Of a DNA stretch of 29,515 nucleotides, positions 8,573 through 29,282 are shown piece by piece. Source of the DNA: a virus; IMG/VR virus record IMGVR_UViG_3300030102_007926, positions 1 through 29,515 of that record, one strand, 5' to 3'. Numbering within the stretch: position 1 is the stretch's first letter; each line of letters begins with the position of its first letter. The notes under the pieces are model-generated. The model was not told the DNA's origin. It was given only the letters and a program-made list of their open reading frames with translations, and did no database searches. The position numbers and the translations under genes were made by a program.

Positions 8573-9027
8573 AATTTAGCAATATATGTTTCGGAATCTT
8601 TAATAAAGCCCATTTTTTGGTAGAATTTGGCTACCTTGCTGGATTTAGGATGAGCTTCTACACAGCTCATCATGACATATTTAAATTCTTTTTCTCTAGC
8701 GAACTTCATAGCGATACCTAAGAGCTTTTGACCAACTCTTGGATTTTTAGAAAGCCAAAGATATTCCGCAAATATCTCTTCTCCAAATTTTTCATTCTTA
8801 TTGTTCAAGAATGCAATCATCGCGTCGAATTTACCTTCATCATTGTAATTAGCCCAGACAAAGAAATCCCAAGCCAAAAGAGATTTATCTCCGAAAGCAT
8901 TAAAGATGTATTCTTTGTTGTGAGTTAAAAGAGCGTGACCTTGCTCTTTATTTTCGAAACTAAATAAGTCATCGATATCATCCAAAAGAGTTTTAAATTC
9001 TTTAGGGTCTAGTATTCTCTTAATCAT
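8569..9027 (-). CDS. GNAT-family N-acetyltransferase
   Basis: The 152-residue length fits a single GNAT domain. LWLSKNPRVGQKLLGIAMKF (residues about 91-110) matches motif A, where the pyrophosphate of acetyl-CoA binds between the end of beta 4 and helix 3. KVAKFYQKMGF near residue 135 is the typical motif B with the Tyr-x-x-x-Gly-Phe pattern. The strand FKYVMMSCVEAHP precedes it. The family transfers an acetyl group to an amine on a small molecule, peptide or protein; the substrate is not evident. It overlaps both neighbours by ATGA (9024-9027 and 8569-8572), implying translational coupling with the genes on both sides. Confidence 0.8.
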   Translation of the reverse strand: MIKRILDPKEFKTLLDDIDDLFSFENKEQGHALLTHNKEYIFNAFGDKSLLAWDFFVWANYNDEGKFDAMIAFLNNKNEKFGEEIFAEYLWLSKNPRVGQKLLGIAMKFAREKEFKYVMMSCVEAHPKSSKVAKFYQKMGFIKDSETYIAKL

Positions 9028-9800
9028 TTATTTAAAGCCACGATAAGCTTTCTAGCTTCTTTAGCCGAAATGTCTGAAAAAGAACTCCATGTTTTAGCTT
9101 CCTCATTTCTATACTTTTCGCTCTTCCATAAGTCTCGAAGAACATCTTTACACGACTCAAATGAATCTACTCCATGTTTTTCTCTTAATGTCTTTGTAAG
9201 AAGCTCTACAGGAGTAACAGGGGTAGCTATGGCATCTGCCTCGACTGCTTGACCTGCTCCTTGTGACTTATCAATCTCATCTGCTCCGACGATGTGAATA
9301 TTGAGATAATTACGGACACAACGGACAAAAGCTCGGTTACAAGCAATCGTTTCTAAGAATTTAGCACAAAAACTATCTGTATTCGCAAGGGTAGCGTTAG
9401 CATAGTCTTGATATGCGACTTCATGCTGGGTCTCATAATTCTTATCCCAGTTTATCGTGCATTTGGCTGTTACATAGCCATCTGAAAGATGGGTTACATC
9501 AAAAGCTACAGTGGAATATCCTCTCATTTTAGCTAGCTCTTTGATTCCTCCAAGCATGATCAGAAGCTGTTTATCTTCCAAGCCCTCTGGAGATGTAGGA
9601 ACTGGCTTATTACGGACATCAAACCAACCTTTATTGGGATACAGAAACTCTGGCTTAATCATAGCCCTCCAGTTTACCGTTCCGTCCTCGTTGAATGCAT
9701 AATCCACATTCTCTAATAAACCATGCTCGTTGCGTATATACGCATCAGGTCCATAGAATTTCTTTGCTGTTTTCTTCTTTGCTGTTTTAGTCGCGCTCAT
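9024..9800 (-). CDS. Phage protein, possible Rad52-like ssDNA annealing protein
   Basis: I chose the ATG at 9800-9798 (MSATKTAKKKTAKKFYG). A start at 9845 would overlap the upstream gene by 59 bp and add a hydrophobic leader; the chosen one overlaps by 14 bp. The basic N-terminus is followed by YIRNEHGLLENVDYAFNEDG and NWRAMIKPEFLYPN, then a mixed alpha/beta region. ETIACNRAFVRCVRNYLNIH (about residues 150-170) resembles the A-x-x-R-A-x-x-R-A-x-x-x-x-L helix of Rad52/Mgm101-type annealing proteins. A linker (GQAVEADAIATPVTP) and a helical C-terminal region end the protein. The overall layout, DNA-binding core plus flexible linker plus small C-terminal domain, fits a single-strand annealing or recombination mediator. 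This rests on one motif and could be wrong. Confidence 0.5.
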   Translation of the reverse strand: MSATKTAKKKTAKKFYGPDAYIRNEHGLLENVDYAFNEDGTVNWRAMIKPEFLYPNKGWFDVRNKPVPTSPEGLEDKQLLIMLGGIKELAKMRGYSTVAFDVTHLSDGYVTAKCTINWDKNYETQHEVAYQDYANATLANTDSFCAKFLETIACNRAFVRCVRNYLNIHIVGADEIDKSQGAGQAVEADAIATPVTPVELLTKTLREKHGVDSFESCKDVLRDLWKSEKYRNEEAKTWSSFSDISAKEARKLIVALNK

Positions 9801-10929
9801 AGATATAAAAATGGTCTGATTCTCTCCAATATTCAGGAGTATCAATCACTTTATTATTACTGTCAAGACCTTTTTTCCAGTGAGCATAACTTAAATATTC
9901 TTTGCCCCCTTCAACAAGCCTTAAAGAAGACATAAATCTAGAATCATCACTAAGCTCACAAGGAGCTTTTTTATCGGAGTGATAAGATATTACAGGAATA
10001 TCAAAGTATTTATTTCTTATACTATTTAGCTCTTCTTCTTTTTTGACTATCATAGACATGTTAATATCCATGTTTTTTAGAATCTCAAAGTAGTTTTCTG
10101 GAATAGAATCCCAACTTTTATCTAAAAATAAATAAAATTTATTTACATTTTTTGCTATTTTTTGCAATCCATGAGGTTGGATTAAGCTAGAAGCAAAAAT
10201 ATTTACAGGATACGAAGAACAATACTTCATAAAAGGATCCTCATTAAAAGCGTAATCAGCTCGAACCATTAATTCTTGCCCAGATTTTATTTTCAAAGGA
10301 TTAAAAGAAGTAGGAATAACTTCTACAACAGGGTTTTGGAATGAAGAACCTATATATTTAGTAGTGAATCTAATATCTTCTTTTTCTATTTCGAGAAAGT
10401 CTAAAACAGATTGAGCTACAACTTCAGGTTTTATGCTGTCGATTTGTTTTTTAGGGTCTTCAATGTTAAAACATGGTTTTTTGTTCCATTTAGGCTCCAG
10501 CGTTACATTTATAGATTCATCAGAGAAAACAGGTTTCGCATTAGCAGCAAAAACATTACCGAATAAAGTAACTGTAGGCAATTTTTTAGAGCTAGATAAC
10601 TGCGCTAAAGCACTGTCACATCCTAAATGGACTAAAGATTTAGATAAAATAAAAGACTGCTGTTTAAAAGAAACATTTAGAGCAGCATCCACCCCTTCTA
10701 TTTTTTTAGAACCCCCTAACTGCACAACTTTAATTTTTGCACGTTCTAAAAAAGGTTTTAAAAGACTAACTACTATGTCGTAGTGAGAATAAGTTTTAGA
10801 GGAAACATTAGAAGCTTGATGGATAGTAATATACTTATCAAAGCAAATAGGAAAGTAATGATCTTTTACTACAGGGTTGCTTATTTTAACGCCTAGACTT
10901 TTTGCATACTCTTCAATTAAATGAGACAT
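9787..10929 (-). CDS. GT9-like glycosyltransferase, C-terminal half, fused to unknown domain
   Basis: Residues 1-185 resemble the second Rossmann domain of the ADP-heptose:LPS heptosyltransferase family (GT9). MSHLIEEYAKSLGVKI matches the inter-domain segment. LGCDSALAQLSSSKKLPTV followed by TLFG (residues about 102-124) matches the family signature of a D-S-x-x-x-H/Q-x-A motif followed by P-T-V-x-L-F-G. The N-terminal Rossmann domain is missing here and appears at the C-terminus of the adjacent upstream gene. Residues about 195-380 form a separate domain (LMVRADYAFNEDPFMKYCSS; TPEYWRESDHFYIYE) I do not recognise. The start ATG overlaps the upstream stop as TAATG at 10931-10927, so translation is probably coupled. 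Donor and acceptor are unknown. Confidence 0.7.
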   Translation of the reverse strand: MSHLIEEYAKSLGVKISNPVVKDHYFPICFDKYITIHQASNVSSKTYSHYDIVVSLLKPFLERAKIKVVQLGGSKKIEGVDAALNVSFKQQSFILSKSLVHLGCDSALAQLSSSKKLPTVTLFGNVFAANAKPVFSDESINVTLEPKWNKKPCFNIEDPKKQIDSIKPEVVAQSVLDFLEIEKEDIRFTTKYIGSSFQNPVVEVIPTSFNPLKIKSGQELMVRADYAFNEDPFMKYCSSYPVNIFASSLIQPHGLQKIAKNVNKFYLFLDKSWDSIPENYFEILKNMDINMSMIVKKEEELNSIRNKYFDIPVISYHSDKKAPCELSDDSRFMSSLRLVEGGKEYLSYAHWKKGLDSNNKVIDTPEYWRESDHFYIYERD

Positions 10930-12821
10930 TATATTAGTGAAAATTGATGTTTATCTAATCCATTGTGGATATAAGATATATTTTTTTGGGTAGTAGAGTG
11001 TGGATAAAATACCATATCAAAATAACCTTCGTGGTCAGACACACCCTCCATAATCAACGAGTTTTCTACCACAGGATTGTAAGGAAGTAATTTATAAATA
11101 GCTGGATTGTCATCGATATAAGCATAACATTGAGGTTTAGTGAAAATATAAATGTTATATTCTTTGTATTGTGATTTTAAGTTTTTTAATAAAGAATTAA
11201 TCAATAAAACATCTACCTCACTTTGAGGTATGACCACAGCTATTCTTTTACTGTCCCCTTCTTTAGATAGCAAGTCTTCTAAATCTGGAGTTTTTAATTT
11301 TTGGGTTTCCTGTATAGCTACTTTCTTGAAGTAATTTACTACTTCAGTTGGATTTTTACCAGATCTTAGTTGAGTCATCCAGTGTTTAAAACCTTGGGAA
11401 TTTTCGTCAACATCATCGCATAAAATATTTTTATAAATGTCAATTAGAAACTCTTCTTGAGAAGTATAGTTATTTCTAGGTTGATAATTAGGGTTGTAAT
11501 CCATCCCCTTGGAATCAAAGTCATAGTCTATAGGAGGCATTTTATCAATTATCTCTTCGAGCTGTTTACCTATGACTTCAACACTAAAATTATCTACAAC
11601 CCACTGCCTAGATTTTTTTTCCATAGCCACTCTTTTATCCTGCTCCATATCTCGAACTAACTCTAGTTTTTTAGCTATATCATCCGCAGAAGTAGACGCT
11701 TTAATAAATTGAGTCCCAGGTTCTCTATACTCACTCCATTCCAAAGGAATACCCCCAGACTCTTCTGAACAGCTATCTTCCCCACAAGAATAATTAGTTA
11801 CTAAAGTAATCATCTCTGTGAGTTTAGCTTCTTGGATCGGAATCTCTTGGCCACCACTTGTAAAAGGATGACAGTATACATCCATCAAATTGTAGATTTC
11901 GTTTAATTGAGAATCACTTACCCCTCTACCTGTGTTAGTTGTGTTCACAGATTTTTGTGTGCCACAAGAAGCGCATGTAAGTTCTTGCCCCCTGAAAGGA
12001 GATATATGATACAATCCGCATTTATTGCAAATATAAGTAGTGATAATATCTTCTGGATTGATACCTTTTTCTTTGATAAGTCTAGGGATGTCCCAACCTT
12101 CAGACCAGTGTGTGTGTAGTAGTAATTTTGCTTTTGGCTCTTTTTCTTTAAACAGTTTAAATCCTTCGAGCATATTAGGGACACTCTTTCTTAATTGATT
12201 CCTAAATACAAACCCGACAATAAACTCATCAGATAAATTGTTAGACTTTCTTAAAGAAGCTCTCTTTTCATCGCTCAATCTAAAAAATTTACTAGTGTCT
12301 AAAGATCCTCTTAAAGTTTTTACATGGTTATACCCCATCTCTTTCATCCCTGTCTCTGCGAAAGAAGCCCAAACATAATAATTTTTTATTTTAGGGGCAT
12401 ATTCAATAGCTTGGGGCAAAATAGGAAGACTATCTAGTGTAGTCCAAATCATTGTATTGATTTTGTTCCACCAAGGCTTTGTATGGAACGAATTAAAAGC
12501 CCAAATATCTTCCATACCTATATAAACATCTGGTTTAAATTCTTTTATAGCTTTATCGACTAATTTACGCCCATAGCCTTCAGCTCTTTGATCTTCAGCA
12601 CTTAAACCCTGTAATTCGTTAGGTGGTAAACCAGACCCTCGACACTTCCAAGGCAAAAGCTTTGTAGAAGGATCATCCCATTGAACTCCGTTGGCTAGCT
12701 CTACAATATTATACTTCTCTGTATTATATAGGTATCGAAGAATATTTTTTTTATTCTTACCGAAACCTGTATAAGCTCGACAAAAATTAGAATGTATTAA
12801 TACAGTCTTTTTTTTACTCAT
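10929..12821 (-). CDS. Multi-domain glycosyltransferase: GT4 with zinc ribbon, DUF4214-like, GT9 N-half
   Basis: The 630-residue protein has at least four parts. Residues 1-430 form a GT-B family 4-type enzyme: VLIHSNFCRAYTGFGKNKKN at the N-terminus, IVGFVFRNQLRKSVPNMLEG at about 201-220 for the start of the donor domain, and TSGGQEIPIQEAK at 321-333 for the sugar-nucleotide E-x-x-x-x-E loop. Inserted in the donor domain at 265-286 is a four-Cys zinc ribbon (CNKC...CASC). Residues about 454-502 match the DUF4214 pattern (EEFLIDIYKNIL, SQGFKHWMTQLRSGKNPTE). Residues about 525-630 (KRIAVVIPQSEVDVLLINSL; NIYIFTKPQCYAYIDDNP) look like the N-terminal Rossmann half of a GT9 enzyme, which ends abruptly. 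The start overlaps the upstream stop by ATGA. Function: transfer of sugars to an unidentified acceptor. Confidence 0.8.
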   Translation of the reverse strand: MSKKKTVLIHSNFCRAYTGFGKNKKNILRYLYNTEKYNIVELANGVQWDDPSTKLLPWKCRGSGLPPNELQGLSAEDQRAEGYGRKLVDKAIKEFKPDVYIGMEDIWAFNSFHTKPWWNKINTMIWTTLDSLPILPQAIEYAPKIKNYYVWASFAETGMKEMGYNHVKTLRGSLDTSKFFRLSDEKRASLRKSNNLSDEFIVGFVFRNQLRKSVPNMLEGFKLFKEKEPKAKLLLHTHWSEGWDIPRLIKEKGINPEDIITTYICNKCGLYHISPFRGQELTCASCGTQKSVNTTNTGRGVSDSQLNEIYNLMDVYCHPFTSGGQEIPIQEAKLTEMITLVTNYSCGEDSCSEESGGIPLEWSEYREPGTQFIKASTSADDIAKKLELVRDMEQDKRVAMEKKSRQWVVDNFSVEVIGKQLEEIIDKMPPIDYDFDSKGMDYNPNYQPRNNYTSQEEFLIDIYKNILCDDVDENSQGFKHWMTQLRSGKNPTEVVNYFKKVAIQETQKLKTPDLEDLLSKEGDSKRIAVVIPQSEVDVLLINSLLKNLKSQYKEYNIYIFTKPQCYAYIDDNPAIYKLLPYNPVVENSLIMEGVSDHEGYFDMVFYPHSTTQKNISYIHNGLDKHQFSLI

Positions 12822-13300
12822 TTATCTCGCAAACTATTATTTTTTGTCAGCCTATGTATGTAAAGCTCTTGGAGATAAAATTTACAAAATTCTAAAAGAT
12901 TGTAAGCCTCTGACATCTCAACTCCGATACCGAACTTATTTGCTGAATTTCTTGTCACCCCAAATGAAAAAGCAGGAGTCCCATTCTTCTTTTGATAAGG
13001 TTTGAACGAGATAGAAGTTTTATTATCTTCGTAAGAATGAAAAGCCGAAAATTCAGTATACTTTTCTACAGCATGAATAAATCCACCAATTTCATTTTCA
13101 TTTAATTTGATAGAAATAGACTTATCTGGATCTTTAGCATTTTCAGAAAATGACCCTGTTCGCGTCTTATCGTTCCAAGAATACTGCTTTACAGCTCGAA
13201 TATAAACGCATGGTTCTTGGTTTTTATTATTGGCTCCGATATCAAAGCTAAAAGCACAACCTTTATTACTAGAATTAGGTTTATAATACTGAACAATCAT
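12818..13300 (-). CDS. Phage protein, possible single-stranded nucleic-acid-binding fold
   Basis: The 160-residue protein alternates short beta strands with charged turns: GCAFSFDIGANN, PCVYIRAVKQYSWND, then DKSISIKLNENEIGGFIHAV and NKTSISFKPYQKKN, with a C-terminal helix (SEAYNLLEFCKFYLQELYIH). Two similar four-stranded sheets followed by helices recall the Whirly/PUR/PC4-type ssDNA-binding fold, and phage proteins of this look are sometimes labelled ssDNA-binding. I infer this from pattern only. It is preceded by a 39-bp spacer with no good terminator and overlaps the glycosyltransferase start by ATGA. If it is the phage SSB, its placement outside the main replication block is unusual. Confidence 0.55.
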   Translation of the reverse strand: MIVQYYKPNSSNKGCAFSFDIGANNKNQEPCVYIRAVKQYSWNDKTRTGSFSENAKDPDKSISIKLNENEIGGFIHAVEKYTEFSAFHSYEDNKTSISFKPYQKKNGTPAFSFGVTRNSANKFGIGVEMSEAYNLLEFCKFYLQELYIHRLTKNNSLRDK

Positions 13301-27896: not shown

Positions 27897-28236
27897 GTAA
27901 AAAGTCTTTTATTGTTTTAATTTTACGAGGTAAATTGAGATCTTCTCCTACCTTGTCGCCTATATCATAGGTCTTATACTTCGATAAGTCAACCTTAAAA
28001 TTAAAAGCTCTGAATTTTTCATCAAGAGTTCCTTTAAGCTTATCGCTGACAAGGTAAGCTAAAGAGTCAAATTTTTTATCAAAAGAGACAATAGACATGA
28101 AATCCTGTGAGTAACGATCACAAAGATCGTTAAGCATTTTCATTTCTCTAGCAAAAAAAGGTCTTCTCCCTTTTTCGGGGACTTCTAGCAATCTGAATAA
28201 GATTTCTCTTTTATTAAGTCCCTTTTTTTTGCTCAC
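27889..28236 (-). CDS. Conserved-type small phage protein, unknown function
   Basis: The 115-residue protein begins basic (MSKKKGLNKREILFRLLEVP), continues FAREMKMLNDLCDRYSQDFM and FDSLAYLVSDKLKGTLDEKF, and ends DLNLPRKIKTIKDFLHE. It is predicted to be mostly helical and soluble. Its place is fixed by ATGA overlap with gmd (28233-28236) and an 8-bp overlap with the recombinase. This resembles small proteins found next to the recombinase in T4-like marine phages, but I recognise no function. A recombination mediator role is speculative. Confidence 0.7.
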   Translation of the reverse strand: MSKKKGLNKREILFRLLEVPEKGRRPFFAREMKMLNDLCDRYSQDFMSIVSFDKKFDSLAYLVSDKLKGTLDEKFRAFNFKVDLSKYKTYDIGDKVGEDLNLPRKIKTIKDFLHE

Positions 28237-29282
28237 GGGTAAGGGTAAGCCGATGCGACATCAAGGTCAACCATTTTTTTGACCAGTTGAAGAAAGTTGG
28301 TTTGAGGTTCCCAACCAAGTTCTTTTCTAGCCTTACTTGAGTCTCCCCATAATAAGTCAACTTCAGCAGGTCTATAGAAATCCTTATTGATTTCTACAAG
28401 AAGATCAGGGCCATGAATATATTTTTCATCCAATCCTTCACCCTTCCATCTGCATTGACTTCTATGAAATCCAGCAAAATTAAAAGATTCTTCTACAAAC
28501 TCTCTAATTGTGTGCGTTTCGTTTGAAGATAACACATAATCTTTTGGATGTTTCTCATTTTGATTTAGCATTAACCACACACCTTTTACAAAATCTTCAG
28601 CATCACTCCAGTCTCTTTTTGTATCTACATTACCCAATTGTAAAGGTTTAACCACTTTTCCCATTTCATATTCTGCAACAATTCGCGCAACATTTTTAGT
28701 AATTTTACGAGTAACGAACTCTTCACCTCTCCTTATCCCCTCATGATTAAATAACCAGCCCTGAACTGCATAAATATCATAAGAATCTCTGTAAACCTTA
28801 ACTAAATGTCTAGCAGCGCACTTGGATGCCCCGTAAGGGCTTCTGGGGCGTAGAGGATGCTCTTCTGTCTGTGGAGAAACTATAACATCACCAAACTCTT
28901 CAGAGCTGCCAGCGTTGTAATAGCGGCAGTTAGGATTGTGTCTGCGAATAGCTTCTAATTGATGCAGAACAGCCATACAATTAGTTTGCATATGATTGAA
29001 GGGCATATCCCAACTGCTGCCAACAAAAGAATTTGCTGCAAAGTTAATGAAGTAGTCAGGTTTATGTGTCGAGATAACTTTCTCTGTATTTTGCGGATCA
29101 GATACATCTAAATCAACTAGAAAAAATCTAGGGTTATCTTTTAAATGTTTAATATTTTTATGGTTCTCGACACTTAATCTTCTAACACCTCCAACAATTA
29201 TATGTTCTGTATGTTTAAGCAAATAGTCAGCCATAAGGCTACCATCTTGACCAGTGATTCCTGTTATTAATACTTTTTGCAT
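28233..29282 (-). CDS. gmd: GDP-mannose 4,6-dehydratase
   Basis: The 349-residue protein is an extended short-chain dehydrogenase. VLITGITGQDGSLMADYLL (residues 4-22) is the NAD(P)-binding glycine-rich loop. NFAANSFVGSSWDMPFNH matches the Gmd N-x-x-A-x-S-x-V-x-x-S motif. AGSSEEFGD (124-132) holds the active-site Ser/Glu region, and SPYGASKCAARH gives the catalytic Tyr150-x-x-x-Lys154. LFNHEGIRRGEEFVTRKI is the conserved N-H-E-S/G-x-R-R-G-x-x-F-V-T-R-K-I segment of GDP-mannose dehydratases. It makes GDP-4-keto-6-deoxymannose, the precursor of GDP-L-fucose and related sugars. It is 20-25 residues shorter than E. coli Gmd. The adjacent upstream gene encodes the next enzyme and overlaps by a TAATG stop-start. 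Confidence 0.93.
   Translation of the reverse strand: MQKVLITGITGQDGSLMADYLLKHTEHIIVGGVRRLSVENHKNIKHLKDNPRFFLVDLDVSDPQNTEKVISTHKPDYFINFAANSFVGSSWDMPFNHMQTNCMAVLHQLEAIRRHNPNCRYYNAGSSEEFGDVIVSPQTEEHPLRPRSPYGASKCAARHLVKVYRDSYDIYAVQGWLFNHEGIRRGEEFVTRKITKNVARIVAEYEMGKVVKPLQLGNVDTKRDWSDAEDFVKGVWLMLNQNEKHPKDYVLSSNETHTIREFVEESFNFAGFHRSQCRWKGEGLDEKYIHGPDLLVEINKDFYRPAEVDLLWGDSSKARKELGWEPQTNFLQLVKKMVDLDVASAYPYP

Follow-up and report, generated by a model that had tools for sequence, protein, structure and literature searches.

Glycosyltransferases of the GT-B fold that are divided between two polypeptides are already known from the MurG family, in which Alg14/Alg13 and EpsE/EpsF are MurG-type enzymes cut at the domain boundary into an N-domain protein and a catalytic C-domain protein (PMC4973528). 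For the GT9 family, the residues that matter most are known from the E. coli heptosyltransferase HepI (WaaC), where the substitutions D13A, D261A and K192A cut activity 4688-, 2027- and 926-fold, respectively (PMC5713226). Our search of open-licence papers found no earlier description of a split GT9. Phages are familiar with split genes, as in the gene 39/60 topoisomerase of T4, where one ancestral protein is made from two genes, and a further gene is sometimes inserted at the break.

The window analysed here, the whole stretch of DNA that we examined, is 29,515 bases long and comes from an uncultured virus record. It carries two abutting genes, here A and B, for which the original prediction proposed a GT9-like fold split across a TAATG junction; it named no strand, and both genes lie on the minus strand. 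Their features are:

10929-12821, minus strand: gene A, an ORF of 630 aa with a GT4 module, a DUF4214-like segment and the GT9 N-terminal half; relatives occur together with B in 165 distinct loci
11532-12821, minus strand: GT4 module, A residues 1-430 (PF00534 at 28.3 bits, cut-off 26.4; phrog_2170 glycosyltransferase, E 1.3e-19)
11964-12029, minus strand: invariant, zinc-ribbon-like CxxC...CxxC inserted in the GT4 module, A residues 265-286
11328-11471, minus strand: DUF4214-like segment, A residues 451-498 (PF13946 at 22.0 bits, just under the cut-off of 23.2)
10932-11246, minus strand: GT9 N-terminal (acceptor-side) Rossmann domain, A residues ~526-630 (hhalign, and model against 1psw 1-147 and 3tov 5-149)
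10927-10931, minus strand: TAATG junction, read from the sequence, in which the stop of A and the start of B have one base, the A, in common
9787-10929, minus strand: gene B, an ORF of 380 aa with the GT9 C-terminal half and an extra domain
10378-10929, minus strand: GT9 hinge helix and donor-binding Rossmann domain, B residues 1-184 (hhalign, and model against 1psw 128-348)
9790-10362, minus strand: additional alpha/beta domain absent from GT9, B residues 190-380 (confident model; hhalign against GT9 below 1%)

The one-base overlap of A and B is thus as predicted, and so is the fusion of the N-terminal half behind a GT4/DUF4214 region, with PF00534 above its cut-off and PF13946 narrowly below. 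Of the usual GT4 EX7E motif, A seems to lack the first Glu. The C-terminal ~190 residues of B gave neither a Pfam nor a GT9 match.

For profile comparisons, we assembled a GT9 set of 69 sequences, comprising E. coli WaaC, WaaF, WaaQ and WaaU and GT9 proteins from the genomes of two groups, and left out of it the phage B proteins found in the mis-binned contigs L176, L181 and L183; an apparent match of the C-terminus of B to GT9 was an artefact of these three proteins and was gone once they were removed. Both segments match this profile in hhalign, the A tail over columns 23-91 (probability 97.8%, E 9e-13) and B 1-182 over columns 154-363, which cover the linker and the C-domain (99.2%, E 1.7e-19), in agreement with the proposal that the last ~105 residues of A and the first ~185 of B correspond to the first and the second Rossmann domain of a GT9 enzyme. 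When the A tail and B are virtually concatenated, they align collinearly with columns 23-363 (99.7%, E 1.5e-26). As controls, 40 column shuffles per half reached at most 3.0% and reversed alignments at most 0.6%, and the GT4 domain of A, its DUF4214 region and the C-terminus of B each scored about 1% or less against GT9. In Pfam, the B protein of the window alone matches PF01075 weakly (E 0.042, 13.6 bits, under the cut-off of 22), and 47 of 50 B relatives match the same model, the best with an E-value of 3.8e-12. Pfam scans of the window proteins and the B relatives, the one comparison made with GT28, match no GT28 model. Searched against the PDB, a profile of B retrieves WaaF (1psw, E 6e-4), and a profile of full-length A gave no match at E 0.01.

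From the window's own A and B, we also modelled the two halves separately with AlphaFold2, with relatives from the fetched loci in the alignment. In Foldseek, the model of the A tail (pLDDT 79) is matched best by WaaF (1psw) and the GT9 protein 3tov (E 6e-3); in VIA-align, it superposes on 3tov 5-149 with a Z-score of 6.7 and on E. coli WaaF 1psw 1-147 with one of 6.3, values of 6-7 being modest for a small Rossmann domain and within the range that other Rossmann folds reach. The model of B (pLDDT 91.7, pTM 0.84) is closer to its counterparts, its residues 1-183 giving a Z-score of 16.1 both against WaaF 1psw 128-348 and against WaaC 138-322. Because the tail model covers 1psw 1-147 and that of B 128-348, the two chains are, as modelled, complementary parts of one GT-B/GT9 fold, cut just ahead of the hinge helix. 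Confidence is low at the conserved TTQK...HNG end of the A tail in the model of the tail by itself, as could be expected of an interface segment, and the GtfA/B structure 5e9t appeared weakly among the structure matches. By profile and by fold, the A tail and B are complementary halves of GT9.

The same split is found throughout the family. B adjoins A as a separate frame in all 80 first-fetched IMG/VR relatives of A, and the two are separate ORFs in 165 of 165 distinct loci that carry both, with no fused A-B ORF among them, so that the search for an unsplit version in related phages returned none. One locus, L173, in which A is without its tail, was set aside, as it looks like a chimeric assembly: it sits at the edge of its contig and continues as unrelated sequence. 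Over the 165 loci, the A-to-B offset varies from -14 to +12 and takes all three reading frames; the junctions of 99 distinct B proteins show eleven stop/offset combinations (TAATG in 29, TAA+1 in 28, ATGA in 22, and others), with relative frames 2, 1 and 0 at 67, 31 and 1 of them. In 11 of the 165 loci, and also in the MAG contig L167, a third gene stands exactly between A and B (L167, L335, L339-L341, L346, L363, L367, L372, L383, L394 and L387). It encodes DUF6165 in the five tested (PF19662 above its cut-off) and a cupin in L387. The inserted genes often overlap their neighbours by 4 nt; DUF6165 is named in no paper that our search of open-licence literature found. On the tree of A, whose root is without insert, at least four changes are needed to account for them, and the nearest relatives of L387 (87% and 91% identical) have none.

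These junctions bear directly on whether the halves are still made as one polypeptide, either by a frameshift or stop readthrough, which the original prediction offered as its alternative, or because the stop is a sequencing error, an indel at 10929. The TAATG and ATGA junctions of many loci would allow a -1 shift, and in L134 the frame does continue across the stop; this is, however, the sole such locus among 99, and 18 of the 99 junctions leave at most three open codons ahead of the start of B in which a shift could occur. Since no single frameshift or readthrough event could serve junctions that fall in three frames, recoding is untenable, and since whole genes intervene in some loci, A and B are separate proteins. 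An indel is excluded by the relatives, as the same break recurs in independent contigs from many samples. We therefore regard a single polypeptide, by whichever route, as scarcely credible.

Both GT9 halves are under purifying selection, with dN/dS of 0.05-0.15 in the A tail and B and of ~0.05 in the GT4 module (window against four relatives). They also travel together: B always adjoins A or lies one small gene away. One could still suppose that A and B do not pair and that each half serves elsewhere, B as a homodimer and the A tail as an accessory domain of the GT4 enzyme, their adjacency being a matter of operon inheritance; the extra domain of B could then offer another contact surface. Against this speak the constant co-occurrence of the two genes and the complementarity of the halves, of which neither is duplicated nor missing. 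The distances of tail and B correlate as well (r 0.82, n=97), though shared ancestry alone could yield this. Altogether, we judge independent roles for the two halves to be improbable.

The surroundings of the pair are likewise conserved. The A/B block has a tail-fibre-like gene on one side and DNA replication genes on the other, and the window also holds the following ORFs, the first two of them adjoining the pair:

12818-13300, minus strand: conserved upstream neighbour, an ORF of 160 aa (with a similar one in 151 of 167 loci)
9024-9845, minus strand: conserved downstream neighbour ORF (with a similar one in 161 of 167 loci)
28233-29282, minus strand: GDP-mannose 4,6-dehydratase-like gene (PF16363, E 2e-103)

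The downstream neighbour matches nothing in Pfam and PHROG only weakly; its beginning overlaps the last part of B, and the TTG listed as its start could be set too early. The GDP-mannose 4,6-dehydratase family is represented in 14 of 15 large relatives, in some by several paralogues, which points to a phage-encoded glycosylation pathway and hints at a GDP-6-deoxyhexose as the sugar. In 13 of the same 15 relatives, there is a lone GT9 match, apparently B, and the other two have further GT9-like matches. In L397 (record G133:C1:106020-108659), an ORF of 1317 aa has two GT9 matches, so that unsplit GT9 domains coexist there with the split pair. By tblastn, 50,697 phage records yielded nothing for B, which no isolated phage of that collection carries, and only weak GT4 similarity for A; against PHROG, B had no match better than E 0.02. 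The pair thus defines a large protein family that has no PHROG, is absent from the isolated phages searched and is hosted by widespread uncultured phages. Contigs of this phage family are also found inside GTDB species genomes (L164-L172; Flavobacteriaceae, Lokiarchaeota, Verrucomicrobiales, Halobacteriovorax and others), where they are probably mis-binned.

Across 98 aligned relatives, the three most important HepI residues, D13, K192 and D261, have equivalents that are kept, one in chain A and two in chain B:

11211-11213, minus strand: codon of A-Asp537, equivalent of D13, the catalytic-base candidate of HepI (WaaC) (Asp in 98 of 98)
10795-10797, minus strand: codon of B-Lys45, equivalent of HepI K192 (Lys in 89 of 98, Arg in 6 of 98)
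10615-10617, minus strand: codon of B-Asp105, equivalent of HepI D261 (Asp in 89 of 98, Asn in 9 of 98)

With an Asp/Lys/Asp set kept across two proteins that are split in all 165 loci and held by purifying selection, the proposal of a broken GT9 gene whose halves were both retained as coupled subunits is supported. Other positions have changed. That of HepI H266, invariant among the 69 GT9 sequences used, is His in 57 and Gln in 40 of the 98 relatives, and Gln in the window; HepI E222 has no clear equivalent. As neither position is kept, we claim membership of the GT9 fold family and not heptosyltransferase activity. By the same two departures, the split pair is not a standard heptosyltransferase, and its donor may be a different one; together with the change of Asp105 to Asn in some relatives, they suggest that the pair may catalyse differently from heptosyltransferases, or that some members may no longer be catalytic.

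Some glycosyltransferases have a GT-B-like partner that is itself non-catalytic, as in GtfA/GtfB. The GT9 halves could pair without catalysis and serve for binding or as a scaffold, aiming the GT4 activity of A at an acceptor or partner, and the altered E222, H266 and Asp105 positions would fit such a role. A pure scaffold, however, needs none of the residues that are kept, neither an Asp537 without exception, nor a Lys or Arg at position 45 in 95 of the 98 relatives, nor an Asp105 in 89, and we consider this explanation unlikely, although less so than that of unpaired halves.

We find it quite probable instead that A and B, each translated on its own, are the subunits of a single GT-B glycosyltransferase of the GT9 type, which was divided by an old gene fission and has its active site at the A-B interface. 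An ancestral GT9 gene would have broken just ahead of the hinge helix (around WaaF residue 128), leaving the A tail with the N-terminal domain and its catalytic-base Asp, and B with the hinge and the domain that binds the nucleotide sugar, whose Lys and Asp would act on the donor. As the likely catalytic Asp is on A and the sugar-nucleotide pocket on B, the active site probably forms only on pairing of the two, for which the tight spacing of the genes, an overlap or a few nucleotides in most loci, would favour equal production and co-translational pairing. As the A tail is attached to a GT4 enzyme, the pairing of A and B would further place two glycosyltransferase sites in one complex, which could add two sugars in sequence; from the domain content of A, which carries both, a tie of GT4 and GT9 activities into one assembly, as originally proposed, is plausible. 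For such an assembly, we infer the physical association and its catalysis, and with them the order of transfer, the sugars and the acceptor. That the bipartite GT9 site, spread over two phage proteins and docked on a GT4 enzyme, makes up a single two-step sugar-adding machine, by a fission independent of those of Alg13/Alg14 and EpsE/EpsF, is a reading towards which we lean slightly. If true, an independent and fixed fission in GT9, with the N-terminal half placed on another glycosyltransferase, would indicate that the GT-B fold tolerates division into subunits more generally, and A/B would lend itself to testing why such fissions persist.

Compared with the known systems, both halves are alike in profile and fold to the GT9 heptosyltransferases (E. 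coli WaaC/HepI, 2h1h, and WaaF/HepII, 1psw; the V. parvula protein, 3tov; TibC, 4rap), with which A/B have in common the Asp of the N-domain and the Lys and Asp of the C-domain; unlike them, A/B are two polypeptides, with the N-terminal half behind a GT4 and a DUF4214-like segment, a shorter N-domain, an extra C-terminal domain on B and divergent E222 and H266 positions. As in Alg14/Alg13 and EpsE/EpsF, the N- and C-domains are on separate polypeptides, in A/B in 165 of 165 loci; those systems, however, are relatives of MurG (GT28), whereas the halves of A/B are GT9 by profile and fold, and in A/B the likely catalytic base is on the N-domain protein, which also holds a complete GT4. As with split genes of the T4 gene 39/60 type, two phage genes account for one ancestral protein, sometimes with an insert at the break, but the inserts identified in A/B are DUF6165 or cupin genes rather than homing endonucleases, and across the family being split is the rule.
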